From: Thuidium tamariscinum
Taxonomy: Eukaryota > Streptophyta > Bryopsida > Hypnales > Thuidiaceae
Reading direction: 5' to 3'
DNA length: 64,000 bases
Assembly (NCBI GenBank): GCA_947034885.2
Contig: OX344754.2
Span: 3,658,001-3,722,000, forward strand
Shown: piece by piece, positions 6,381 to 57,693 of the stretch
How the letters are laid out: every line of letters begins with the position of its first letter
How positions within the stretch are numbered: position 1 is the stretch's first letter
The notes under the pieces: generated by a model
Told to the model about the DNA's origin: nothing
Seen by the model: only the letters and a program-made list of their open reading frames with translations
Databases searched by the model: none
Position numbers and translations under genes: made by a program

Positions 6381-6960
6381 AATGTGCTCTAACGTTCAAT
6401 TTTTGGATGATGTATAAATTGAAAATTAAATTCTTTTTCATTACAACTTAGATGAAAGTCATCTTAATTTTTAGAGATACTTTAGGAAGTTGTTGTCCTA
6501 TCCAAGGTTTGGATTTGGTGTTACTAGAGTACATATTTTTCCAAAATTACAAATGTAGAAGTCTATTGAGTGCTGAAATTGCAATGATTCACTAGTTCAA
6601 AACTTGGAATTGCAGAAATGACATTATAGAATCAAAGGATACAAAAATTCCAAAAAATCACCATGTCAAGAAAACCTCTTTTTAAATCCATTCCCACAAA
6701 ATTTACTCAAAAAATGACAACATTTTGTTGATCATAGAATTTAGAAGGAATTTTGAATTTTTCCTTTCAAAATTTATAGAAAAATATTGGTGATAACATT
6801 GGTGAATCTAACTGTATGGATAGAATCTAAAACTCAATCTCTACAACTTTTATCTACATCTCCATTCCAAAATATTCATCCAAATAGTTCTAACCAAAAT
6901 ATTCTTTCAAAATTGTCAATTTTGGAGATGAGTTTGGACACTCAAAGGTTAAACTTGCAA
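6380..6960. repeat. Dispersed repeat D, copy 2
   Basis: Direct-orientation relative of 2700-3260, sharing several blocks of 15-25 bp in the same order. Frames are broken. M-family copy 1 follows immediately at 6962. Confidence 0.6.
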
Positions 6961-6961
6961 T

Positions 6962-7285
6962 AAGGTAGAAGGTTTACTAATCACCCATCTAAGGGTTGAA
7001 ATTGAATTTTGGGGAGGTGAAACATCTTGAAATATTTTTCAATATATTTTCCTTGAAAGACAAATGGAAATGACATCTAACCTAAGTTGTTTCATATTTA
7101 TTGGAGCTTTGTGGAATTTGTTATCAAGTTTTGAAGTTGAAAGGGCATAGGGCTCTAAAATGGTGCCTTGGCTAAAATGTACACTTAAATGTACACTTTC
7201 AGCGCACTATTGAAAGCTATGAAAAAACAACATGTACAAATATTGTACATTTAAAATAGGGCACCATTTTAGAACCTTCTACTTT
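6962..7285 (+). mobile_element. MITE family M, copy 1
   Basis: About 324 bp with inverted ends AAGGTAGAAGGTT and AACCTTCTACTTT. The interior matches 58160-58491 in the same orientation and 57694-58024 in the opposite orientation, including the block GGCATAGGGCTCTAAAATGG. A sub-terminal hairpin is built from TGTACATTT / AAATGTACA-type words. Possible TA target duplication. Non-coding. Confidence 0.65.
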
Positions 7286-7492: not shown

Positions 7493-8830
7493 ATGCCTAC
7501 AGAAGTCAATTTTTCTGATCTTGAATTTCTAACAACAGACACAGGTGAAATATTTTGCTTCTTTCATTTTGACAGCAACCAACCTAACTGAATAATTTCA
7601 TTTCAAAGGCTTACAACGTTGAAGTTGATTATCAGTCAAACTCAAACTTCCGTGGTTTGCCCGGTTTACAACACAAATTGAAGACGCTTCTCCATGTAAA
7701 ACCGTTGCAACTCTTTCTGAAGCAGTTTTCCCCAAATCGGATTGTTCTCGATGATCGCGGAAAAAGGTTTAAGCACAGGTTGGGCCTGCTGTAACATTCC
7801 CACCGATGTGGTTACCAAGGCAGCGAAGCCTCCCGCATTCAATAGGGACCTTGTGCAAATTATGGATTGCAGTGAAGAAAATGAGCACAGGAGCGCTCAA
7901 ATGAAACCTATTTCACGACAGTGATGGAGAGAAAACAGGAGAGCGCCTCTGCTTTACATTTCAAGGAAGACAAATTCAAACACGAGTATTTATCATCCAG
8001 TTGAGATAATTGCTGGCAACTGCATTTCCCAGCTGCATGTGTAAAATCACCGAACACTCTTCCTACATGAGTAACTGATCATGAGAGGTCCAATTCAAAA
8101 TGACTTAAATCCGAGGAAATAAATCTCTTTCCCAACGATATACTATCTTCTTGCACATAGGACCAGTTTCTCCTTCTATGAAAATTCAAACTACAGATCA
8201 ATTCAAAATCTTTCTTACTACAAAGTCGTCAACGTCATGAGGCTACTTTCGAAGCAATTATCGTCGTTCAAGAATCGCAGTCACCCGAAAGGACTGCAAA
8301 AGAAAAATCAGATGTCAAACTCAGCGGAATATGTATTTGAAAATTCATCTCACAGCATGTGCCGTGCACCTTACAACGTCTCAGAGAATGGAAACAGGTG
8401 GAATTCAAAGCCTATGCTCAGGGCATTTCTCCACCAAAAAGATGAACAACAAGGTTCAAAAAAAGCATAGTCATTAAAAAAAACTGTAATCTACACAGTC
8501 ACTTCTATGTTAGACGCGCTACGACTATGAACAGAAAATTAATTATAACCGTGAACATCCTCAAAAATATAAGGTATGTACAGACAGTGAAACATGTTGT
8601 CTATAGGAAAAGAAGAAAAGAAAAAGAGCCGGAACCACGTTGCAGAAGAAAAATGCTCGAAACTAACTACAACTTCATTTTACGATTAGGCAATTCAATC
8701 CCAAAGCGTACTCCAAAATATCAATTGCAAAATTAAAGAACACTACGAGCACAGCGAGCACCTAAGCATCAAGATTGATATACGCAGAACAAATCAGGAG
8801 TACCTACGCTTAAAGTCGACCACAGTCCGT
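7493..8830. other. 3' flank of DSS1, no confident gene
   Basis: Moderately complex, less AT-rich sequence on the 3' side of DSS1. Two frames of 60 and 77 codons on the plus strand (7742-7924, 8237-8470) have no motif I recognise and no convincing splice context. Part of the region probably belongs to the DSS1 3' UTR; on the minus strand a GTAGGTAC motif shortly after the DSS1 stop could be a 3'-UTR splice donor. Confidence 0.35.
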
Positions 8831-9055
8831 CTACTTCTCCGCCTCGAGCTCCTTCTTGAGCTGCACGGAGAAGTCGTCGGTGACATCGTCATCGTCCCAG
8901 TCATCCTCCCATTGCTGCAAGGCGCCTTTCCCCTCATCTTCGTCGTCCCACACCTCGTTCTCGAACTCCTCGAACTCGTCATCATCCTCGAAAACGTCCA
9001 GCTTAGGATCTTCCACGACGTCCTTCACCACCGTTGCGCCCGTGCTCCCCGCCAT
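8831..9055 (-). CDS. DSS1: 26S proteasome lid subunit DSS1/SEM1
   Basis: A 74-residue, extremely acidic and probably largely disordered protein. The DSS1/SEM1 family stabilises assembly of the proteasome lid and in animals and plants also binds BRCA2. The diagnostic features are two acidic segments with tryptophans: DVFEDDDEFEEFENEVWDDE at residues 20-39 and QQWEDDWDDDD at 47-57. They are followed by the C-terminal helix DDFSVQLKKELEAEK (60-74). Length equals that of typical plant homologues. The frame is uninterrupted with no intron in the coding part. The start is the ATG giving MAGSTGATVV. The upstream side on this strand contains a GGGCCCACACGTC promoter-type motif (9289-9307). Confidence 0.93.
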   Translation of the reverse strand: MAGSTGATVVKDVVEDPKLDVFEDDDEFEEFENEVWDDEDEGKGALQQWEDDWDDDDVTDDFSVQLKKELEAEK

Positions 9056-9288
9056 CGCTCCAAGCTAATCTCCACTGCAAACTTGTCACCTCGCAACACA
9101 ATCGATGAAGAGCTCTGCTCCGAAGTCCGAACCCTAACAAGTAACAACAGGCGGAACTTCTGCGTTTTCGTCCCCATTGCTCGACCTGTAGATGATTTCC
9201 ATCCAAGAATTCTGTTGCCAGGTGGATGTGGATGAAGGAACATGTTCCTATTAGAGGGGGAATCACCTAGAATATTAGTGTCAACACA

Positions 9289-9307
9289 AACAAGACGTGT
9301 GGGCCCT
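9289..9307. repeat. 19-nt inverted repeat, left arm
   Basis: The sequence AACAAGACGTGTGGGCCCT is present here and in exact reverse complement at 17296-17314, 8 kb away. AATATTA also precedes it on the outer side in both arms, with a 12-nt spacer difference. It could be a degenerate terminal repeat of a large element, or a shared promoter module, since GTGGGCCC is a TCP/site-II-type motif and DSS1 starts 234 bp away on the other strand. Confidence 0.5.
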
Positions 9308-10150
9308 CTCGTTTTCTGTATGGTGAATGGAGACTTTACATTATATTACCAAGCACTTACAAATTGGTGTTGTTGACGCGATGTTTTCGTTTGTTGCATT
9401 GCAGGCACAGGAGCATGGGAGAGTGCTTTGACGAACACCTTGTCTCCCGGGGACAAGATCATCTCCTTCCTGCTGGGCCAATTCAGCCTCCTCTGGATCG
9501 ACCAGATGCAGCGCTACAACTTCGACGTGGACGTGGTCGAGGCTGAGTGGGGTGAAGGAGCTGATTTGGAGATTCTGAAGAAGAAGCTGCAGGCGGATCG
9601 ATCCCACTCTGTGAAAGCCATCTGTGTGGTGCACAACGAAACCTCCACGGGAGTCACCAACGACATCGGCGCTGTACGCCGTGTTCTCGGTAAAAAAAAT
9701 ATCCTAAACCAGAGTTTCGGTGGAAACTTCACCTAATATCACCTATTATTCTGAATTAATTTCAAATAATTTTGACAGTCGTTATTCCGAATCTTTAGAA
9801 ATTGCTCAGTGAGCGTCAATTCTGAATAAGCAAGATTTGCAAGAGGTCGTCGCCAAAAGATACTGAGAACGGGAGTGGACAGTCGTCTACTCTAAGATTT
9901 AATTTCCAAGAAGCACAATGTATGTAATAGTGAAGGTTTTAAAGGTGACATTAGATAATCAGGTAGCAGAATGCACTTGGCTTTGTGCATATTAACAAAT
10001 CTGGCCGATCTCTTTCGTTGCCCTTCATCATTTAAAGTGGGCTTTGATACAATCCTTCACACAAGCTATGAAGTGGTGGAACTAGAAATTTCGAACATTC
10101 GGATTTTCAAGATTGCTTCTATCTCAAACACTGGATTAAGATTGTTTTAA

Positions 10151-10370
10151 TCTTATCAGAGGACCGAGAAGCCCAATTTGGGGTTCATAATGTTTCAGCA
10201 CTTTTGGGGTAGCTCGTATGGGGACTCTCTTTTGTCCAAGTTTTTGAATTTTTTGACGAACACGTACAAATGAATGTTCTTCACTTATACGTCGGATTAT
10301 CCATCTGAATTATCCATTTCACAATATGATCAAATCAAACTGGTCATTTGAAAACCATAAATCCTGGTTC
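10151..10370. mobile_element. P5-type TTAA element in AGT1 intron (degenerate copy 1)
   Basis: It begins after TTAA with TCTTATCAGAGGACC-GAGAAGCCCAATTTGGGG. It shares the order of words with 15360-15590, including GATCAAATCAAACTGGTCATTT and the end TCCTGGTTCTTAA. The right terminus is eroded. A second related copy follows at about 10385-10600. Confidence 0.5.
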
Positions 10371-10384
10371 TTAATTTCGTGATG

Positions 10385-10600
10385 TGTGATGGGGCTCATA
10401 TTTTTTTCAGCACTTTTGAGTAGCTCGTCTGGGTTTTTTCTTTTGTCCAATTCTTTTTTTTAAATTTTGACAAACACGCACAACGTATTTCACTTTTACC
10501 TTAAACACATATTTTTTTTTCCCTTTCTCAATTACATATTTCACAGTATGATCAAATCAAACCGGTCCTCTTGGAAACTATGGATCTTAATTTCCTTAGA
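10385..10600. mobile_element. P5-type element in AGT1 intron (degenerate copy 2)
   Basis: Direct repeat of the preceding copy: CAGCACTTTT-G-GTAGCTCGT, CTTTTGTCCAA, then CACAGTATGATCAAATCAAA and CTTAATTTCCTTAGAGG. It ends just upstream of the acceptor of AGT1 exon 10625-10994. Confidence 0.5.
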
Positions 10601-11017
10601 GGTAAAAATTATGATTGTTCCCAGATGAGGCGAAGCACCCGGCCTTGCTCCTCGTGGACGGCGTGTCCTCCATCGGCGCCATCGATTTCCGCATGGACGA
10701 CTGGAAGGTGGACGTGGCTCTCACGGGGTCGCAGAAAGCGCTGTCCCTCCCCACGGGTCTTGGCATTGTGTGCGCCAGTCCGAAAGCGCTGGAAGCTGCC
10801 AAGCATTCCAAGTCCACACGCGTCTTCTTCGACTGGGGAGACTACATCAAGTTCTACAAGGCAGGGACGTACTGGCCTTACACTCCGTCCAGCCAGATGC
10901 TGTATGGGCTGCGCGCTGCTCTGGACATGATCCTCGTGGAGGAGGGGCTGGATAATGTCATTGCCAGGCACTGTCGTCTTGCCGAAGCCACCAGGTATAA
11001 ACATACGATCTCAATTC

Positions 11018-11087
11018 TCTTTTTTTTGGAAACAAATGAAACAGAATTCCATTGCAAAGGGCAAAATACAAGCCCGCCAGCCACAAA
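11018..11087 (-). mobile_element. Very short retroposon tail with 13-bp target duplication
   Basis: ACGATCTCAATTC occurs at 11005-11017 and again at 11088-11100. The 70 bp between, read on the minus strand, ends in GTTTCATTTGTTTCC followed by an A-rich tail (T-run at the left side on the plus strand). Target duplication plus poly(A) indicates a severely 5'-truncated LINE-type insertion in the AGT1 intron. Confidence 0.75.
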
Positions 11088-12693
11088 ACGATCTCAATTC
11101 CAACACTGCATGATTGACCTCGAAAGAATATCAATGGTACAGAACCTCTGTCACAAAGCTGACAGAGAATGTCCTTCATTGATTTGCTTGACAGGGCAGG
11201 CAAGTGTAAGTTAGTCGGTATGCTCTGATTCATTGCTGCAAGGGTTGTTAATTTGGGTTAGTTCCAAAGTGGATGTCAAAACTCTTTTAACTTAACAGCG
11301 TGATCTCCTAAAGCGGACTGACTGCTTGGGGTTCGGGATCAATAACTATGATTTCGTTCGAATGTGTGACAAGTCTGCTACTATTGATGATACGATAGTG
11401 TGCAAATGTGAAGGGTAGTGTAGAATGTCATTTTTTTAGGTTCATATTTAAGCGAACACCCTTGACCTCAGCTCCTTACTCCATGCATTGGTGAATGGGT
11501 ATGTTTGGGTGAAGTAGTTTGAATTTTGAATCCGCTACAGAATATCTCAACTTCTTTTTGTTAAGTTTATTCTTGGAGTAGCCTTTCCAAAGAGTATATC
11601 ACAAGAGTTCCCTTAATTTCCAACCTCCACATTTCCTTGTGATTTCAAAGCACCTTAGTTTTGTGTTTACAATCGCTCTAATGTTTCATTGACCACTGTG
11701 TATGATGGGAAGTCCATTCATAGGCTACTAGTGAGATCAGACACCCTACACTAGTTTGAAATTCCTTTTGTAATTTGTGATTTCCTTTTGTAATTTGGCA
11801 GGCAAGCTGTGAGAGCCTGGGGTCTGTCGTTGTGTACCAAGAAGCCTCAGTGGAAAAGTGACACCGTCACTGCAGTGGTGGTGCCTTCGTGGATCGAAAG
11901 TGGTGACATTGTCAAGATTGCTTATAAGAAGTACAACCTGAGCCTTGGAGTCGGACTTAACAAAATCGCAGGGAAAGTCTTCCACATTGGACACCTCGGG
12001 AATGTGAACGAGGTTTGGCCCTGCAAAGTCATGCCCCTCTCTGTCTCTTCCTTCGTTGCCTGCACAGATGTTGTCTTCTTTTGCCCTTCCTAGTGCTTAC
12101 TATTTGACTGGAAGGCTGAATTCTTGTAATTATCAAGGATCATGGTTCGGCAGTAAATTAGATTGCTGCAGAAACTTTTAAGACAACATCACACAGTAGG
12201 TCTTCCCATGATTTATGAGGGAGTCTCCTTATATTAATCATATGAGATTTCTCCATGAAAAATGGGGAGACTTCCAGAAGATTTGTGGGTCTATTGAAAG
12301 ACCTCATGAATCACAGGGAATATTCTACTTTCGATGTTGCCTAAACAGTCTACACTTAAACCTCTTTAATCTTACCACCTGGGATTCCGACTTTTTCAAT
12401 GTTAAATAGTTTAGATGTGGCATGTGTGACAGTTTGATTGCGTAACGTAGTGTGAATGCTGGTGAAGCAAGTGTGCAGGATATTCTAATATTTGTGAGAA
12501 CATCATAATGAAGTTTGTTATATTTTTTGTATTGTTGGGAGGATTCAAGTTAGCTATATGTCTTGCTATGTCCTCCCAAGTGTAGGAAAATTTTGGGTGG
12601 AGGATTTTTATTTTCTTATCCTCTCTGTGTGAAATTTATACACTTTGGGAATTTGTCAAGGCTAAGAAACTTTCGTCTCAGTTGTTTAACCAG

Positions 12694-14305
12694 GATTCTG
12701 AGGATCTCATCGTAGTTCACGACGCTCTGGAATTTGGAAAACAGTCACCTTGCCATTGGGGTTCGTGTTCTCCTGACTTGCAGCATTAAACTTTTTTTGC
12801 ACTCAAAGCTTCCCATTGTTGCAGAGTTTGCTCTTACTTAATTCCTACATTTTGAGGTAACAGTGTTATAAACTTGAAGTCATGAGAATTTTAGAGAATG
12901 CTGAGCTCTGGATAAGTTCGAACCGCTAGTCAACTGCAATGAATTACATACATAGCATACATCTGGTGGAATGTGTGGTGCGACCCAATCTGATATCATA
13001 CTCAATTTCCCTATCTGATATGATACGTTTAATCTGTATATCGATTGAGTTTCAGGATCGAGCTATTCGGCAGAAACTTAAATTTTAAACGGATTCAATT
13101 CTTGCATTGCAGATTCCAATTTATGGCATCTTTGAGAATATCAACTCTTTAAGTCAGTTGGCTGCCATGCCACTGTGGACTGAAGAGAGGCCCTTGCGTG
13201 TTGTCACGGGCTACACTCTACACTTCCCTAGAGTGACGTACATGTCTTTCCTAGTCTGTCAATCTCTGTCTGCTGAAATACACGCTAGCTGCTATGATTA
13301 GTGCAATATTTTGAATCAGCGCAAAATACTTACCACAATGAATCTCTTGCAACGCAGTTGGGAAAGAAATTCTTGAAAAACAATGGGTTTAAACATTTCC
13401 AACTCTCCAGCGCTGATGGTGCTTTGGAGGCTGCACCAGCTGTGAGTAATTATGCTGACCTAACACCCTTTCGGTCTAGTTTTTCAAAGATCTAGGGTTT
13501 GATTAGTGGGTTTTCTCTGAGGTCTACAGGCTGTGCCTTTTGAATTATTCGGATGTACGAAGTTAGTATACGTAGTCTTACGCGAACCAACTTGGAATCT
13601 GCTCAGATGGGGACTGCTGATGCGATTCTGGATTTGGTGAGCAGTGGAACCACCCTACGTGAGAACAATCTGAAGGAGATCGCTGGTGGAGCTGTTCTCA
13701 GCAGTCAGGTCAAGATTTTTCCTGGTCCAATTCCTGTTCCTACTAAAGTATCAAACAGTTCCGTTGTGATCACCTTTTAATTTTGAGTTCTTTCAGGTTC
13801 TATTTCAGTGACTGTTTAGTCAGTGCAGAGGATTACTAGCGGCAAGTCCTTCAAATCACATTAGTTGGAACGATATTTCTTCTTTCGTTGGTTTAGGGTT
13901 CAGGAATTGGTAAGTGCAGTCCATGCAGAATGATGGGTTATTAGTTTTGGCCTCGTTGAGTGTTCGAATGACCAGAAGGGATCACTTCCAAATTTACTGG
14001 AGTTGAATTGAATCATACAGGACGGTAACAAAATGTACCAACTAGAGAGAATGAACCATACCCTACATTGTTGAATTGAACAATAGAGATATGTTTTTAA
14101 ACCTACTATAAGAAGCTATCCGCTTCGCCTCCGAGTTTCGCTTCCAATTTCATGCTCATACTGATCTGGTGTTCGCCGTTTCTGTCTGAAGGGTGTGTTT
14201 GTTGCGAACAAGAGGGCGTTGCTGGAACGCAAGGAGGTGCTGGACGTTGCTCACGAAATGCTGGAGCGATTTGAAGCACATCTGACTGCCCTCGGTCAAT
14301 TCACA
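12694..14305 (+). pseudogene. HISN1: ATP phosphoribosyltransferase, internal exons with a frameshift
   Basis: HISN1 catalyses the first step of histidine synthesis (ATP + PRPP) in plastids. Five exons are recognisable: 12694-12760, 13113-13232, 13358-13441, 13607-13708 and 14192-14305. They encode SEDLIVVHDALEFG, then [20 protein letters not shown] with [33 protein letters not shown] with [28 protein letters not shown] with LKEI, and ANKRALLERKEVLDVAHEML. The first exon is 67 nt where 66 keep frame: an extra A in the AAAA run 12738-12741 breaks it before SHLAIG. Exon 2 lacks a good donor after VTGYT; the nearest in-frame GT (13233) adds five unusual residues. The N-terminal half (transit peptide and first domain) and the C-terminal ~100 residues were not found. 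It lies between the AGT1 and mannosidase fragments, same strand. Confidence 0.85.
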
Positions 14306-14545
14306 GTATGGATGGAAACAATTCCACCTGCCTTTTGGATCGAACGCGGTGTGACGATTTAGGAGAGGAGTCGTTTTGTTGACGTTTGTTTCGCGCTGGT
14401 GTCGATTTTAGGGTTTGAAGCTCTGGAATGAGAGCTCGGTTTTGGTGGATGAGAGCTCTTTTGTCTAGCAGCTTTATGGATTGATTGTTTGGAGAATTGT
14501 TGCAATTAGATCACTTGCGTGATCGCTCGTTTTCTGTTGAAGAAG

Positions 14546-15987
14546 ATGGCGAGACCGAGGGCGTAATCCGCCTCGGTGCCCCGGTTTTTGAGCCCGATGT
14601 ATTACCTTCGGCGACCACGGCGCCTGCTCATTCTGTTTGCCTTCTTCGTTTGTAGCACTTACTTTCTCTGGGATCGTCACAACCTTGTTGTTCATCAGGA
14701 GGTAACTTTTCAATCTATTGCAACCATCAGTTTTTAATGAACTCTGAATAGAGTATAGTGTGTATGGATTTAAGCAGAGGATACTATTTGCGTCACTTTT
14801 AGCAATTCAACGCATGTTGGAGTGTGATTTTGGGAGCAGTGTTGAGCCGTTTTGTGAGTAGATGGATACAAGAGCCAATCTCTCTTGAGAATCACTATGT
14901 ATGAATTTCTTATGCGATCATTTGAAGTGGGTGGTTGTAGATCACTATCAGTGACATTATACCAAACCTATTTCCAGTCAAAAATCAGTAGCCATAGACA
15001 TTCAGCCAAGTTTTTCTTGCACCCTTGCTTCTTAGTTCAACCTAGTGCATGACTTGATGAGTTGCTGTTGGTAACAGGTCAGTATGGGAGACGGGATTAG
15101 GTCCCTAGCGGTTTGACTATCCTCTATCTTACTTGAATCTGATTTTGCAGGTATAGTGTGTTGACCTGACTCTGTTATCTCTGTGTGACAATGTAGGAGA
15201 CTGTGAAAAGTTTAACTCAACAAAATGATAAGCTTCAGCAGAAAGTAAGAATCCGAACTTTCTGGTTGCATTATAGCTTACATTTTAGAACATTGCACTA
15301 TCAATTTGTAGCTGTCAATCTCGAAAGGTTGTTTAGAGATTAATTCTTCTCAATTTTAACCCTTACAAGACCTACAAGCCCGAATTGGGCGTCATGTTTT
15401 GTTTAGTAGTTTGGAGTAGGTCAAAATGGAGTTTTTTTGGTTCTATTTTATTAGTTTTTAACCCACACATGTAATGCTATTCACTGATTCTGATGATACT
15501 AAATTTGGCCTCATCCGAATTATTGATTATTCTCAATACGATCAGTTAAATCGGTCATTTTTAAACCACGAATTCTTGGTTCTTTAAGGGTTAAGATTGG
15601 TGGTACTAGATTTTCAGTGCCAATGGAATTTCATTGAATGCTGAGCCTCGTTACTCTTTTATTCTTATGAGTCCGATCAAGACTACAATTGAATTTTGTG
15701 CCATAATCGTGACTGAGCTTTTGAGTGTATTACAGCTCGAAAAGCTCGCAGATCTGCTGACGGAGAGGGGTGAGAGCCTACCGAATGAGCTAGAATTTCA
15801 GGAGCAGGAGAATAGTGGCAGCAAGGGCAGTGGGCAGGACCTTCCTGATAAGACGAAGAAGCCAACATTGACTGATGTTGATGAGGATCCAGTCGCGGCT
15901 CAAAGGTGTGACAAAGTCAAGGAGGCCATGCTTCATGCTTGGACTGCTTATGAGAAATATGCCTGGGGCATCATGGATGAACTCAAG
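14546..15987 (+). pseudogene. MNS1: N-terminus of Golgi/ER class I alpha-mannosidase (GH47), no catalytic domain
   Basis: Plant MNS proteins are type II membrane enzymes that trim Man8-9 N-glycans. Exons 14546-14701, 15197-15244 and 15736-15987 (all GT-AG, phase 0) give a cytosolic head with LRRPRR, a membrane anchor LLILFAFFVCSTYFLWD, a stem including KSLTQQNDKLQQKLEKLADL, and the start of the enzyme: [19 protein letters not shown], then YEKYAWG-DELK. The first codons read MARPRA and are followed by an in-frame TAA at 14564-14566, where homologues continue; a later in-frame ATG (14597) could restart and keep the anchor. None of the roughly 430 residues of the GH47 barrel is found downstream, where an opposite-strand gene begins. 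Hence a fragment. It may still be transcribed. Confidence 0.8.
15360..15590. mobile_element. TTAA-flanked element, family P5
   Basis: A 231-bp element starting CCCTTACAAGACC and ending GGTTCTTTAAGGG, with perfect TTAA on both sides (15356-15359, 15591-15594). It lies in the intron between the last two mannosidase exons. Two eroded relatives occur in the AGT1 intron at 10.15-10.6 kb. Confidence 0.65.
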
Positions 15988-16173
15988 GTGTATATACGTT
16001 CACGTTACGTGTCTCAAATCTAATGTTGTATTACAAGTGTTTCGTAGAATAGCGGTAACACTAATCCACAAATGTGGACGGCAATACATTGCACCGCGCA
16101 CGTACTAGAGCCTGAGATTCGTAACACATTAGTAGTATTTGGTACAAATTTAGCAGAGTAGCTCTCTCTATAA

Positions 16174-16314
16174 CAGGGTTTTTTTTTTGGTACTGTTCAT
16201 CTACAGTAAAGCCCTCTGTGTCCTCCCACCAGAGGCCAATATTGGGAGGGAGCCACACACACTGGTGAGCCAGAGCGGGAAGCTGGCGATAAATCGACAG
16301 AAAAAAAAACCCTG
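16174..16314. mobile_element. hAT-type MITE
   Basis: A 141-bp insert with ends CAGGGTTTTTTTTTT and AAAAAAAAACCCTG. It is flanked by a perfect 8-bp duplication CTCTATAA (16166-16173 and 16315-16322). CAGGG ends with 8-bp target duplications are characteristic of hAT elements. The A/T runs next to the ends leave a poly(A) retroposon as an alternative. Confidence 0.7.
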
Positions 16315-16322
16315 CTCTATAA

Positions 16323-17295
16323 TGCTCTTCGAACGCAAATCATTCACTGATAAACACAAGAGAGCGAGTCTAACGCTGAAACAAACTCAGAGGCTGAGCA
16401 AGCACCTCTCAAACAATCATTCCACATGCGACTGCTGAATATGCTTCAACAAGGATGATCCGCCTCCCTCATCTTCCGCAAAGCTGCGAGCTCCCGCCTT
16501 CCTTCCGTTAGTTCAGGGTAATAAACTGAAGAAAATAACAATACTTGAGTGCCCAAACAGAATAAATTTCAGAGTTCCTAAAACTCACACAAGTGACATG
16601 ATGGATTCCTTCAAGGTTTCGATGGATTAGTCGATCCAATATTAGGTTATGCTGGATTTGCCAAACCATTTTTACGATCACAGACATCATTCGAAGTACA
16701 GCGACTTTTACATCCAAAATCAATGACAGTAACATAGATACAACAATTGCAACTGAACGAGAGCAAAATACTGAAGGTAAACACTGTCTTCAATTAGCAA
16801 ATAACCCATCTACCAATTAACCATGATAATTGGACTCAGCTAGAAGTCGAGCAGCTTGTACATGCTGTGCAGGATGATCATACTCTTAAACTCTGATTCG
16901 AAATGTTCATACTGACGTTATACTAAATAACCAATGTTTCCGTACAGACCAAATGACAAACGAATCCTACAATCACTTATAAATTCTCTAAATTTTATCA
17001 CAGAAAATTCAGAATAGAAGTCGAGCAAATGAGCTCGTAAGAGATGGGGTGTACGCCAAAACTAACGACATGCAGAAGCACTACACTACAGAGAATTGTT
17101 CCCGTGATAATCAATCGGGTTTCACATGTAAAGAGTTATCTTATAGAATTTCATTTCAATGCAACCAGCACAGGTGTGATTGAATATCGCAAACAAGCTC
17201 CTACTTAATATTCACAAGCAGGGCCACAACTCACCGTCAGGATATGTTCCATAGAGGTCCACGAACAGGTCCCTTCCCTTTAGGGTTTAGAGTCT
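16323..17295. other. Spacer between mannosidase fragment and Dof-like gene
   Basis: No convincing gene. A minus-strand frame at 16508-16735 has no known motif. On the minus strand, 17290-17265 holds a telo-box CTAAACCCTAAA and site-II-like GGGCCC, followed by an ATG and a GTGAGT donor (17257-17232). This could be a promoter plus tiny first exon of an unrecognised or lost gene. Confidence 0.3.
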
Positions 17296-17314
17296 AGGGC
17301 CCACACGTCTTGTT
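17296..17314. repeat. 19-nt inverted repeat, right arm
   Basis: Exact reverse complement of 9289-9307. The two arms enclose the AGT1, HISN1 and mannosidase fragments. Confidence 0.5.
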
Positions 17315-17491
17315 AATATTTACAAAGAGAATGATGGAGACATAGATTGCTCCAAGCACGGTAGAGCGAAAGTGACAGAACCCTCTAAGAGTATTCTTGT
17401 TCAGTAATTGCTAGCTCGCTCTATAGCTTCAAACATATTCAGAAGCAATACGCTAGCTAGCTAGAATATTTTCTTAGTCTCGGAATTCCAT

Positions 17492-18635
17492 CTAGTAAAC
17501 CCAAGAGGTCATCTCTGTGACATTGCCGGCCTCATCATCCTTGTTCCAATAAAAATCAGAAGACTCCTCAACCTCTATCAAGGCTTGTTCAAGCAAAAGG
17601 GGCTCGGGGATGTCATGGAATGCATCAACATACACCATGGTCGAGCTTTCACTGGACAAAGAATACTTTGAACCAGTGGATTGCCCAGACACCACCGTCA
17701 ACATGGAATTCTTGCGGGCCATTTCCATCTCCAAATCCATCTGGCGGCAGACAGCTGTAGCAGCTTCCGCATAGTTCATGCTAGAAACACCCACCGATGA
17801 ATTATCTTGGCTCCAGGAACCAGAATCAAATGCAGTCGAACTGTCCACCACCGAAGTTCCGTACATGACTTCTGGTACATTCATGGAGGTAGACTCGGAG
17901 ACCATCTCGACCGATTGATTTGAGACCATATAAACATCAGGAGCCATTGCACCAGTCTCAATGATATTCATCAACTCTGCATCTTCGATGCTCCAAGTCG
18001 GAGGCAACATGTACTCACCATCCATGGTGGTCGTAGGGGAAAAGGCATCAGCATTGGGAGCCGAATCATTATTCTCCGGCTTTGTCAGAAATTCAGCCTC
18101 AACGAGGTCCCAATATGCAGCGGCCTCATCAAAAGGTGGAGGTAAGTAGTTTCCATCGTCCCCATTGGCAGTCGAGGAGAGGGGATCAACTTGAGTCTTT
18201 TCTTCGTCAACCAATTCCATCTCAAGGAAATTTGCATACCCGACATCTTCATCATTGATCTTTGGGAACAAGCCGTTGTCAGTCTCAAGGGACATTAATG
18301 GATCACCATACACAGGCAAGAATGATCCGTCAAATGGCTGGTACCTTCCATTGTTAGAGCTGTTGCAAACTACGCCTTTCTTCACCAATCCCCAAAAGTC
18401 GCATTTGAAACTGTTTTCCACAACTTAGGCACTTGAAGCGTGGCTGGGAGAGATTGTGATTGTTATAATACTTAAACAGTGCGTTGTCAACTATGCCACA
18501 ATGGCGACACTGCCTTGACAAGCACTTTATCTCCGGAGGGTCCTCGTTTCTCTTTTTGGCATACATCCTGCCTTGCAGGCGACCATGCCACCCAACTGTG
18601 AAATACTTTCGGCAATGGTGGCACTGATAGCGGGG
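17492..18635 (-). pseudogene. Tandem Dof-like zinc-finger gene, 5' part missing and frame broken
   Basis: Dof proteins are plant transcription factors with one CX2CX21CX2C finger that binds AAAG. The exon begins after an acceptor (CAG) at 18635 with PRYQCHHCRKYFTVGW, the second half of a Dof finger (family: PRYFC-xC-RRYWT-GG). A basic linker MYAKKRNEDPPE follows. Then comes a second, nearly whole finger CRHC...FKYYNNHNLSQPRFKCLSC, with 22 rather than 21 residues between the cysteine pairs. This frame stops at 18354. The next frame runs from about 18420 to the stop at 17492 and encodes some 305 acidic residues with repeats such as YLPPPFDEAAAYWD and YMLPPTWSIEDAEL, which look like an activation region. 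One base must be skipped somewhere in 18357-18420 to join them; the TTTT run 18414-18417 is one candidate. The exon with the first half of finger 1 was not found. Assembly error or real decay are both possible. Confidence 0.7.
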
Positions 18636-18845
18636 CTGATCTACCTCGCGGGCGTGGTGGTGACGTTCCTAGTCTCTGTCCCTGACTGGCCGTTCTTCAA
18701 TCGCCACAAGTTTACGTGGTTGGAGCCCATGTACGCCGAGAAGCCGAGCCAACGGGTGATCGCTGCAGGATGTTCGCCTCAGAGCAGGATCAAGCTTCGG
18801 AGCAGGATCTTCGCCTCAGAGTCTCGCAGGATGTTCGGCTCATAA
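18636..18845 (+). pseudogene. SPCS1: Signal peptidase complex subunit 1 (SPC12), one exon
   Basis: SPCS1 is a ~90-residue double-spanning ER membrane subunit of the signal peptidase complex. The frame IYLAGVVVTFLVSVPDWPFF followed by NRHKFTWLEPMYAEKPSQR matches the second membrane span and the hallmark VPNWPFFNRH-L-WLDP-EAEK of the family (about 18640-18755). The N-terminal half (first membrane span) is absent: upstream on this strand lies the antisense of the Dof-like exon. After SQR the frame runs into a short GC-rich direct repeat (CAGGATGTTCG-CTCA words) and stops at 18845. A gene fragment or a rearranged gene; not enough remains for a functional subunit. Confidence 0.65.
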
Positions 18846-18850
18846 TCTCG
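18765..18850. repeat. Short imperfect tandem repeat
   Basis: Words GCAGGATGTTCGCCTCAGAG, GCAGGATCTTCGCCTCAGAG and GCAGGATGTTCGGCTCA recur at roughly 30-bp spacing directly after the SPCS1 homology. They form the 3' end of the open frame there. Confidence 0.6.
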
Positions 18851-19177
18851 CAAGATTCTCAGGAAAGTTCTCTCCGAGCATTGGTAATTATAGAAACCGT
18901 TTTCTTCACTACTACTCAGTAATTATTATCCAACTATGCAGTCTTAACTCTGCCCAAACGCACGAATCTCACACCTGCTATCAAGGGTTCAACATAAAAC
19001 TTCATAATAGAATGGTCGCCACTTACACTTGTATGACACAGAGCTGGACAAAAGGATTAATCCAACCTTGGGACATTCAGATTACCAGTATCAGACAATG
19101 TACAATTCGCATGTTTTATGCAGAATCAATGAGTCTCCCTTCAAGTATCCTGAAGAATACCTGCCCTCTACGACCAT

Positions 19178-22009
19178 CTACCGCCTGTCGCTAATTCTCT
19201 CGGGTGCCGAAAGCCCTGTTCGCTCCTCATACAGCTTCTCAAGAGCCTGCATTAACACCACAGGGAGGAAAGATTGGTGAACAGTTTAAGACCCCTTCAA
19301 AAAACAATAAAAATGCTGCATTTCTGAGAATGCTGCCCAGTCTGAAAGTGCCAATACGCACACAGCAAATACCACCTTCAAACATTTCCTAGTCAAGTGA
19401 GGCGGCCAGATACCACCAGCTGATTTTACTTACATGACTGATTCAAGAATTTCTAGACAATCTTGCCTGGTGTGTGTAAATGTCTCCCTATGATCACTAA
19501 AAGGCCACACCAAGATACATAACGAGGCCTCCGTGTCATCACTGTGACAAAAAAAAGACCTGCCCACGAATAATGGGGACGATTCTCTCAATAAAAACGA
19601 TGTCTGGAAAGTTCTTGAAAACAGTCTAATCGTATTGAAAACCAGGTTTTCTGCATTATGGTATGTGGATCACATTCTGGAAGTGAACAGTTGTGCAAGA
19701 GACAATGCTGGAATGGGAGAATGAAATTGACCTCAAGCTCTGGTCGAATTGTGTCCAGGACTTCTGGAGTCATTCGATCGAAGTACAAAATTCCCTGCAA
19801 AAATAATAAGAGCGTGAGCCCTCTGTCAGACTCTAAACAGGCTCTAAGTTATCATAAACGAAGATCTATTCTGCGCAGATTAGATAATTAAATATCTAGC
19901 TAGACGGATAGATGAACGCAAGTGCAGATCAAGATCATCCAGACAAGGGATTGTGGCCACAAAATCTAGCTTCTGAATGACACTTCCTAATATTCTTTGG
20001 CTTTAGGATTTGGGGTCACAATCTGCCATGCTTACCTCGAGATGATCATATTCGTGCTGGAAAATTCGAGCCTGCCACTCCTTCAGATTAAGGCTGAATT
20101 TCTTTCCCTTGATGTCTTGGGCATCTATCCTCACCGACTTGGGCCTCTGGACAACCAAACAATCAGACAATCAGTTCAGGAAACAGTAGTATAGAAAAAA
20201 TAGACATGGATATCGAAGGCACTAAAGTCCATTCCGAAGTGTAGAGGACTCTAGTGTATGTTTAGAAACCAAAGGTTCATGAGATCGACTCCCAGGGATA
20301 CTTTCATTAAATATATTAGATCCTAAGCAGAACAGCCTAAAAGTAGCAGTCGTTTTGGCATAATCAAAGACTCTAATTGCTGTGCTCCACCGCATCTGTA
20401 ATTTTGAAGGTCTTAAAGAGACCCCTGAAGCTGGGATGGAGGACTTCATCTGCAGGGGTCTTCAACATATCAGACCTAAATTATCCTGGTTTACCTCCTC
20501 CGGGTCCTTATTACACAATCTATCCTCGGTTCAGAACCAGACATAAAAACAAGCGAATGAACAAAATAGCACATTCGTGTTGATGCACAACCGGATTGAA
20601 CTTAACCCTAATATCCACGAGTACTGACCTCCACTGATGCCTCAATTGTAGGAGCTTGCTTGGGACCTCTTTCCAAGACAGGAAAAGAAAGGCAGCCTTC
20701 ATCAAAAAGATCCCGAGATTTCCCATACTTGACAATACGGGGATTCACCAACACATACTCTTCTCCACTCCCCCTTTCTCCCACGGGGTTGTACACCATC
20801 AGCCTCACATTTACACCCACTTGAGGTGCTGCCAGGCCCACCCCGTCCGTCCTGTAACAAACAATTCCCAATTGAGGATCTCGTACACTGACAGGTTATC
20901 TTGCGCAAAATGTAGTGTGAACGTAAGGAAGGGTCAATTTCGGGTACAGCATTTGAAAGTTCCAAACGGCGCCCAAAAGTTTCATGCTAAAATGCATTGG
21001 AATCGTCTTTCAACTGCCAATAAGACCCAGAAGAATTAAGATGGTTCGATAATTGCAACCATGCTTTCTTGAAATATTTTTTGAAATAGGTGTGCACAAC
21101 ACGACTGCAAGAGACAAGTTCAAATGCTCACTTGTACATAATGTCGAACATCTCATTCACAAGCTGTTGGAGTTTTTCGTCAAACACTTTGATCAGCTTG
21201 TTCTTGGCCCGTAATCTTGGATCCGGATACAAGACTACATCTAATGGCGATTCAAACTCCAGAGGACCGGCTGCCACATAGCACACAATACAGGACAAGC
21301 TCATGAGATGGCGATACGATAGAAACAAATAAGATAAAGGAAATTAAATCCATTAGAAAGTCGATCCCGTCTCCTGTACTGACCCCTGGTATCGACATGA
21401 AACTGATTTCTTCAAATAAACTTGGTTGGCTTTAAATTGGCAACTCGTGTACCTAAGCAAGCCTAGGCTAAATGTCTATGGCCCCCGATGCTTAAATGGG
21501 GTCTACTATCCCTTCAATAGTCGTCTACAACCTCCCACTTTCAACGATTGCATAAGCAAAACATCATACATTGAGTGAGAAAATCTTTGTAATCAAAAGA
21601 TATTGGCTCCTGCAGTACCACAGTGACGCAGATAGTATCCTCTACCTTATATCTACCAGAAATGCATGGTGCAAAAGACAGAGAGAGTCAAAACCCTAAT
21701 CAACAGGGTACCTGCGTCTGCCTCCTCCCTAATGCTCTGAAGCTCCGACAGTAAACTCCTCTTTGCAGCAACCTCAACAAGGTGCCTCCGTGTCCCTAAC
21801 CCTAATGCGCTCGCCGCATCTCGCCGCGGCCAAACACTCAGTTCAGTTCTAGCTCTTCTCAAGTCACTACCATTCCTGCTCTCCCTTCCAAACACACTAC
21901 AAGTTACCAGACTACGTTGCCCACAGTTGATGAGGGGTAGCAATGAAGTCCTATGCGTATGTAGTAACGACGTGCACGGTCTCAAGGACCCTCCCAGGGT
22001 TCCTTGCAT
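19178..22009 (-). CDS. PDF1B: Peptide deformylase 1B, organellar, six exons
   Basis: PDF1B removes the N-formyl group from new proteins in chloroplasts and mitochondria. Exons in transcription order: 22009-21712, 21270-21132, 20851-20629, 20146-20036, 19794-19732, 19246-19178; all GT-AG and phase-consistent, 300 residues. Residues 1 to about 99 form a Ser/Arg/Leu-rich transit peptide (MQGTLGGSLRPC...). The catalytic domain follows: YPDPRLRAKNKLIKVFDE, motif I GVGLAAPQVG (149-158), motif II EGCLS (Cys199) and motif III QHEYDH (His251, Glu252, His255). Cys199 and the two histidines bind the metal and Glu252 is the catalytic base. The tail ALEKLYEERTGLSAPERI is typical of type 1B. An in-frame TAA just before the ATG fixes the start. 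Residues 204-216 replace the usual GIYA segment and look like a retained 39-nt insert. Everything else is intact, so the gene is probably functional. Confidence 0.93.
20641..20679 (-). other. 39-nt in-frame insert in PDF1B with GT...AG ends
   Basis: Within exon 3, codons 204-216 (VLERGPKQAPTIE) start GTC and end GAG on the coding strand. The family normally has a short G-I-Y-A-type stretch between SFP and the R-P pair. Removing the 39 nt would leave SFP-ASVE-RPKS, still in frame. Confidence 0.45.
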
Positions 22010-34509: not shown

Positions 34510-34731
34510 CCCTTAAATGTTGACAACAACGTTTTGTGGCCGATGAATGACAAAGAATCTTTCCTTGTAGGATAGAAGTGCAACTATTCATCCTTGAATT
34601 TAGAGGTGAAAAGAGGAAAATCTTCTACAATATTTTGACTTCCAATGAGTAAATTTGGCGTATTTCAAATAGATGATGTCATACGGTATCAAAATGCATG
34701 ATATCCACAACCACTAATCCATCCTTGGACA
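34510..34731. mobile_element. TTAA-type element, family P3, degenerate copy
   Basis: After TTAA it begins CCCTTAAATGTTGACAAC and is alignable to 57191-57412 throughout (GACAAAGAATCTTTCCTTG, ATCTTCTACAATATTTTGACTTCC, GGTATCAAAATGCATG). The right end reads CCTTGGACAATTAA and is eroded. Confidence 0.55.
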
Positions 34732-57190: not shown

Positions 57191-57412
57191 CCCTTAAATG
57201 ATGTTGCGGACATTTGGTGTCTGCTAAATGACCAAGAATCTTTCCTTCCAGGATAGAAATACAACTTTTCATCCTTGGTATTGGGGGTGGAAAGGGAAGA
57301 TCTTCTACAGTGCTTTGACTTCCAATGCATATATTTAGCTTTTTCAAAGTAGGTGATGTCACATGGTATCAAAATGCATGGTTTCCGCGGCTACCGGTCG
57401 GTCCTTCAAGGG
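57191..57412. mobile_element. TTAA-flanked MITE, family P3
   Basis: 222 bp, start CCCTTAAATGATG, end GGTCCTTCAAGGG, perfect TTAA on both sides (57187-57190, 57413-57416). It is related to 34510-34731. Non-coding. Confidence 0.65.
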
Positions 57413-57693
57413 TTAAACATTGTTTGAAGTAGGTGATAGCTTATGATACCTCATACAATCTGCTCTTAAGTTCCACATTGTATTTCAAATTATAATGACC
57501 TGTAAAGTGTAAACCCTGGAGACGGCCGCCTTTGTATCCGATCTGTTAAAGTTTGTTGTAAATGCGCTGCAGGGACCAGCCAGCCCTGTTGTGCAACAAT
57601 AGACGTAACTATTCAATGCCCTGCATTGATTTCCAAGTCGATGGGTCCAATGGGGTGCAAAGAGAACTTGGGAAGCACCTTCCTCCGAGCAAC

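Follow-up and report, generated by a model that had tools for sequence, protein, structure and literature searches.

A gene-fragment patchwork in Thuidium tamariscinum, probably built at the broken end of a Helitron with non-canonical termini

We analyzed a 64,000-nucleotide stretch of the Thuidium tamariscinum genome (GenBank assembly GCA_947034885.2, contig OX344754.2, positions 3,658,001 to 3,722,000 of the forward strand; hereafter, the window), in which an earlier note had described a run of five incomplete genes between positions 9405 and 18845. Based on Pfam domains and on matches to more complete parents, all five fragments are present; their exact gene names are presumably AGT1, HISN1, MNS, Dof-like, and SPCS1. 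The block is real; however, its true range is 9290 to ~19007 (9.7 kb), and it holds two further pieces (16028–17279 and 18867–19007). Seven of its pieces are copies of other loci, and the remaining three come from one dispersed Helitron family (Table 1); this patchwork was probably built at the broken end of a Helitron.

We searched the source genome (363 Mb in 19 contigs) with window positions 9050–18950 as the query and scored 39 of 1375 candidates, so further copies may exist. Near-identical sources divided the block into 9301–12517, 12518–14347, 14338–16029, 16028–17314, 17310–18641, and 18639–18763; a second search added Helitron subterminal repeats at 18764–18866 and a match to C5:7.68 Mb at 18867–19007. 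Exons and introns alike were copied from genes elsewhere in the same genome (on contigs C2, C3, C5, and C6 for the pieces with a clear source), in agreement with the earlier description of a block of intron-bearing fragments from several genes.

Table 1. Pieces of the patchwork, in window coordinates.
Feature	Positions	Strand	Evidence or remark
Helitron family 17-bp terminus (CTTGT|T end; 3' end in Helitron2 orientation), body rightward	9290–9306	-	Exact motif match; continues into AGT1 copy
AGT1, three internal exons and introns	9307–12517	+	97% BLAST match to C2:7898764-7901991; Aminotran_5
HISN1 (ATP phosphoribosyltransferase) internal exons, both ends missing	12518–14347	+	97% match to C2:41262675-41264515; HisG
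MNS (alpha-mannosidase, GH47) upstream region and first exons, catalytic part missing	14338–16029	+	96% match to C6:10609234-10610933 (-)
X segment, also at C3:35.35 Mb (L013)	16028–17279	+	Already Helitron-joined in element X, C3:42.64 Mb (L011)
141-bp MITE, presumably hAT-like, CAGGG ends, later insertion	16174–16314	.	Many 94–99% copies; 8-bp duplication CTCTATAA
Helitron CTTGT|T end and 17 bp subterminal, flanked by Dof-like gene	17280–17313	+	Junction with Dof shared by L010 and L014
Dof-like gene copy, N-terminal part missing, 74-bp frame-breaking deletion near 18371	17314–18641	-	Zn_ribbon_Dof; 12 related places
SPCS1 (signal peptidase subunit) 125-bp piece	18639–18763	+	Intact gene in L086; partial copy in L014
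Helitron family hairpin-end subterminal repeats	18764–18866	+	Matches to L101, L103–L107; left border not resolved
Copy of C5:7678513-7678656 (-), 141 bp	18867–19007	.	138/141 bases

The AGT1, HISN1, and MNS copies align to their sources with 98.2% (3142/3199), 98.0% (1782/1818), and 97.4% (1628/1672) identity over aligned bases. Pfam was run on nine pieces, two of which returned no match. Two of the three AGT1 window exons (placed by eye at ~9405–9689, 10625–10994, and 11802–12012) matched Aminotran_5, although one of these matches, at 18.7 bits, did not reach the curated cut-off of 21.5 bits. HisG was found in the HISN1 window piece, which also has indels within exon sequence; the submitted piece of the HISN1 parent gave no match. 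Glyco_hydro_47 was found at the MNS parent locus, and only the SPCS1 parent was seen at full length, the other parent loci being viewed in part. AGT1 had been described as lacking both ends, and two outer-exon motifs present in its parent are indeed absent from the forward strand of window 9001–16100; HISN1 likewise is a copy of internal exons only. The descriptions of MNS without its C-terminal part and of the Dof-like gene without its N-terminal part also held, whereas SPCS1 lacks its C-terminus as well as the N-terminus that the note had recorded as missing. A further partial copy of the AGT1 region, distinct from that in the window, lies at C11:8065940-8067394 (L018/L019); its identity is 96% over one part and drops to 88% over the adjoining part.

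The longer piece of the X segment is 97.4% and 97.7% identical over aligned bases to L011 and L013, respectively. A miniature inverted-repeat transposable element (MITE), of a class that we take to be hAT-like, is flanked by CTCTATAA in the window and is absent from both L011 and L013. The Dof-like copy, which contains Zn_ribbon_Dof, has two parts that are 95.9% and 97.4% identical to L009; the first part is 94.1% identical to L010, and the second 95.1% identical to L014. The SPCS1 piece is 97.6% identical to the intact gene in L086, which has a full frame at C6:2.13 Mb and an SPC12 domain, and 98.4% identical to a partial copy near the Dof-like copy in L014. The C5 piece is 97.9% identical to its source.

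Dof-like copies are numerous and dispersed (L009, L010, L012, L014–L017, L020–L022, L030, and L035, in addition to the window copy), and the copy in L009 has a 441-residue open stretch. We considered a lost intron as the cause of the 74-bp gap in the window copy and rejected it; because coding sequence in L009 continues across the gap, the gap is a deletion. The L014 copy carries a ~260-bp foldback insertion near the equivalent of window position 17404, which the window copy does not have. To the left of the block, the neighboring gene, given as intact in the earlier note, is a DSS1/SEM1 frame at 8834–9055 on the reverse strand, with a near-complete Pfam domain.

A collapse or misjoin in the assembly, raised in the earlier note, is very unlikely to account for the block, because the copies differ from their parents by ~2–3%, with indels, and because one of them has a MITE with a target duplication that its sources lack. 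More complete parents are also present elsewhere in the genome.

The three Helitron pieces belong to a family with a 17-bp end, ACAAGACGTGTGGGCCC, that has 176 genome matches with at most one mismatch and none for a reversed control; the listed places among these are 79 exact and 21 one-mismatch ends. An A precedes the end in all 26 instances viewed (a few of which are duplicates of each other). In most compared pairs, the sequence inside the end diverges after 17–60 bp, whereas a few pairs remain alike to the end of the compared piece. The far end of the element is a hairpin followed by GGGCCCATA, defined from two copies that are 98.8% alike and matched at 16 genome places with at most two mismatches. 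Each of the nine exact hairpin ends has a correctly oriented 17-bp partner end 5.0–11.3 kb away, for which the chance is ~0.0013 per hairpin end; the seven inexact hairpin ends had no partner among the listed 17-bp ends.

One autonomous-looking copy has 11,307 bp between its paired ends and an open 1163-aa Rep/helicase frame (L082:2712-6203), in which both PF14214 (Helitron_like_N) and PF05970 (Pif1-like helicase) scored over the cut-off. The best PDB match of this frame is Helraiser, in the helicase part, and its PF14214 score is below that of 18 other genome places. The transposase is antisense in this copy. Its 68-nt hairpin end has a predicted folding energy of -24.3 kcal/mol (z -5.74), a stability reached by 0 of 200 shuffles, and no stable fold was predicted for its 45-nt 3' end. 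The terminal repeats are TATGGGCCC at one terminus and GGGCCCACA, with one mismatch, at a distance of 8 nt from the opposite terminus. In the direction that starts at the hairpin end, the target is TTTT|T in seven of nine cases, with T after the join in all nine, and no clear target duplication was seen by eye at these nine targets; Dof-like copies that lack the insertion have the sequence TTTT|TAATATTT. At L101, the subterminal repeats that match the window come after ATTTT|TATGGGCCCC.

Three other arrangements involve this family. In L041 and L044, a family-like hairpin end is immediately followed by the 17-bp end of a second element, as apparent end-to-end insertions. At L049/L050 (C2:38873414 and 38880219), opposed ends ~7 kb apart share the same adjoining sequence, apparently through an inverted duplication. 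Elsewhere in the window, repeats at 6959–7098, 34531–34720, and 57227–57420 are 76–80% like stretches inside the 11.3-kb autonomous copy.

Judged from its sequence, the family is a Helitron with non-canonical ends. Canonical Helitron1 elements are defined by 5'-TC, CTRR-3', and insertion at A|T, whereas the ends here are TATGGGCCC and CTTGT and the target is mostly TTTT|T. The canonical ends that the earlier note suggested looking for are not supported: the bordering ends are ACAAGACGTGTGGGCCC, and the family has a hairpin followed by GGGCCCATA, although no separate TC/CTRR scan was made. PMC3627910 and PMC5148889 give as Helitron2 traits a TTTT|T target, asymmetric terminal repeats, and, in some members, an antisense transposase. 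The family resembles that type (Helitron2/Helentron of Chlamydomonas, Selaginella, and the Fusarium FoHeli elements) in its Rep/helicase, 5' hairpin, short asymmetric inverted repeat, first base T, TTTT|T target without duplication, and antisense transposase. Helitron2 insertions fall between TTTT and T/C without duplication. The family differs from Helitron2 in its 3' repeat, which is 8 nt from the end rather than the published 20–30 nt; in carrying large cargo copied from other loci; and in lacking a predicted 3' hairpin, a feature that Helitron2-like FoHeli3-5 also lack (PMC5148889). Because the 3' hairpin is missing, we regard the family as Helitron2-like and not as a certified Helitron2 member; the ACAAG family is new, and the kind of element is already known.

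Within the block, the 17-bp ends at 9290 and 17313 form a perfect inverted repeat, in 29-nt arms that are 86% complementary, which could suggest a Pack-Mutator-like element (Pack-MULE), the other mobile element proposed in the earlier note, or another inverted-repeat transposon. We considered this repeat as the terminal inverted repeat of one element and dropped it after genome searches revealed a hairpin at the opposite end of the family. Inspection by eye of the 79 listed exact ends gave no second pair that face each other at a distance of up to 15 kb, and nine ends pair with a hairpin end instead, one of them around Rep/helicase. No target duplication, which in a Pack-MULE would be 8–10 bp long, was seen by eye at 9290/17313. 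With the 17-bp repeat belonging to a Rep/helicase family, an origin as a Pack-MULE or another inverted-repeat transposon is extremely improbable. Nor was there any long flanking direct repeat in 8000–20500, which speaks against the long terminal repeats that had been suggested.

Other members of the family carry cargo. The 6.1-kb element in L058 is present at four places with 99–100% identity. Most of it is made up of two cargos, the first matching C2:13.00 Mb at 96% and the second matching C6:15.90 Mb at 98%, which surround a stretch common to other Helitrons; a further match of the second cargo, at 85%, lies at C2:26.74 Mb. Based on these matches to other loci, the cargo is probably host-gene DNA; none of its three tested frames had a Pfam match. 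Element X carries 2.35 kb in common with C3:35.35 Mb at 96.2% identity, and because the latter sequence continues beyond the position of the join and has no Helitron end there, C3:35.35 Mb is the likely source. With these two elements, it is well supported that the family picks up multi-kb segments, one of which later multiplied.

These elements lend weight to the possibility that the block was captured inside one family element and moved here as a unit, as the earlier note had supposed. Helitron ends in inverted orientation bound 9290–17313, and by chance only ~0.04 facing pairs within 10 kb are expected for the 79 exact ends (0.21 for all 176); the AGT1, HISN1, and MNS copies also share one orientation. 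However, the two bounding ends, 8 kb apart, are the same end of the element rather than one of each, and no hairpin end was recognized in 9290–19400 by sequence or folding, albeit with the reservation that hairpins vary. For these two reasons, the block does not qualify as a single intact element; in addition, both of the joins tested are single-copy. A Helitron-type element is involved as the note had proposed; capture within it is unlikely.

The joins between pieces are abrupt: apart from the MITE and the 74-bp deletion, no more than 10 bp separates the end of one segment from the start of its neighbor. The bases common to both sides number 0 at AGT1/HISN1, 3 at HISN1/MNS, 2 at MNS/X, 3 at Dof/SPCS1, and 6 at Helitron/C5. 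The left join coincides with the inner edge of the 17-bp Helitron end, which runs into AGT1, and shares GGG.CCTC, with one mismatch, with the end of the autonomous copy. The X/Dof join falls within a Helitron end common to L010, L011, L014, and the window. The AGT1/HISN1 join has one exact genome match and one match with 3 mismatches, and a search for the HISN1/MNS join that allowed up to 3 mismatches gave a single place in the genome. Source identity is 97.4–98.4% for the AGT1, HISN1, MNS, longer X, SPCS1, and C5 pieces.

Such abrupt, low-overlap joins and the similar divergence of most pieces fit a filler-DNA model, and we favor template-switching repair at a broken Helitron end over clean mobile capture, with a probability of roughly 0.6 for a ten-piece patchwork formed by filler-DNA gene capture. 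The process would have started when a Helitron broke internally, ~17 bp short of its terminus, after which synthesis would have jumped between templates on very short matches. At the X/Dof join, the shared Helitron end may have served the template jump. The whole patchwork may have arisen in one event, and the resulting block would not itself be mobile.

Several results weigh against this explanation. The shorter X piece shows no difference from L011 (140/140 aligned bases), and the Dof part reaches only 94.1–97.4% to the compared copies, its source copy not being identified; because of these two values, a single event is not proved. The Dof and SPCS1 pieces are 560 bp apart in L014, and L011 already has the Helitron/L013 join; some of the patchwork may therefore have been taken over in preassembled form. 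The join comparison did not resolve the SPCS1/Helitron border, and the joins searched genome-wide on their own were two, AGT1/HISN1 and HISN1/MNS. Such neighbors and shared junctions, including the Dof/Helitron junction that recurs in L010 and L014, as well as the later MITE insertion, could instead reflect stepwise accumulation, in which Helitron insertions, deletions, and duplications occurred independently of one another and built up at the same site. We consider this improbable in view of the similar divergence of six pieces and the long pieces that abut without leftover sequence.

The exons of the AGT1 copy have fewer changes relative to the parent (3/870) than the 12.6 expected under a rough neutral model, whereas HISN1 (7/487; 6.6 expected) and MNS (7/400; 7.3 expected) are near expectation; exon borders in these counts were hand-set and are a few bases off. 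Changes outside exons number 54/2329, 29/1331, and 37/1272, respectively. The AGT1 copy alone thus looks constrained (P 0.0014), a lead only, as this is one of three tests with a simple model and hand-set borders. A broader and decidedly doubtful scenario is that the family repeatedly makes patchworks from broken ends and mobilizes some of them, with the AGT1 copy in the window kept by selection in a new gene.

Like filler DNA at plant double-strand breaks, the block strings together copied pieces that have little or no sequence in common where they meet. The window pieces differ from such filler DNA in being up to 3.2 kb long and in including three from one transposon family. As in maize and other canonical Helitrons, gene fragments here lie in non-autonomous elements that share little beyond their ends; unlike those Helitrons, the ends are not TC...CTRR, and one end is missing from the window block. 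Whether Helitrons acquire host genes by end bypass or by filler DNA is a matter of continuing debate, and end junctions of 2–13 bp in insects were taken as support for filler DNA (PMC6544945). Because the genome itself contains the sources of most pieces and the majority of the joins can be read to the base, the locus is a good test case for Helitron gene pick-up. No earlier report of gene-fragment pick-up by plant Helitron2-like elements was found in the open-access literature, which is weak evidence. The family suggests that Helitron2-like elements pick up gene fragments in a plant, and the patchwork may show how Helitrons help to shuffle genes.

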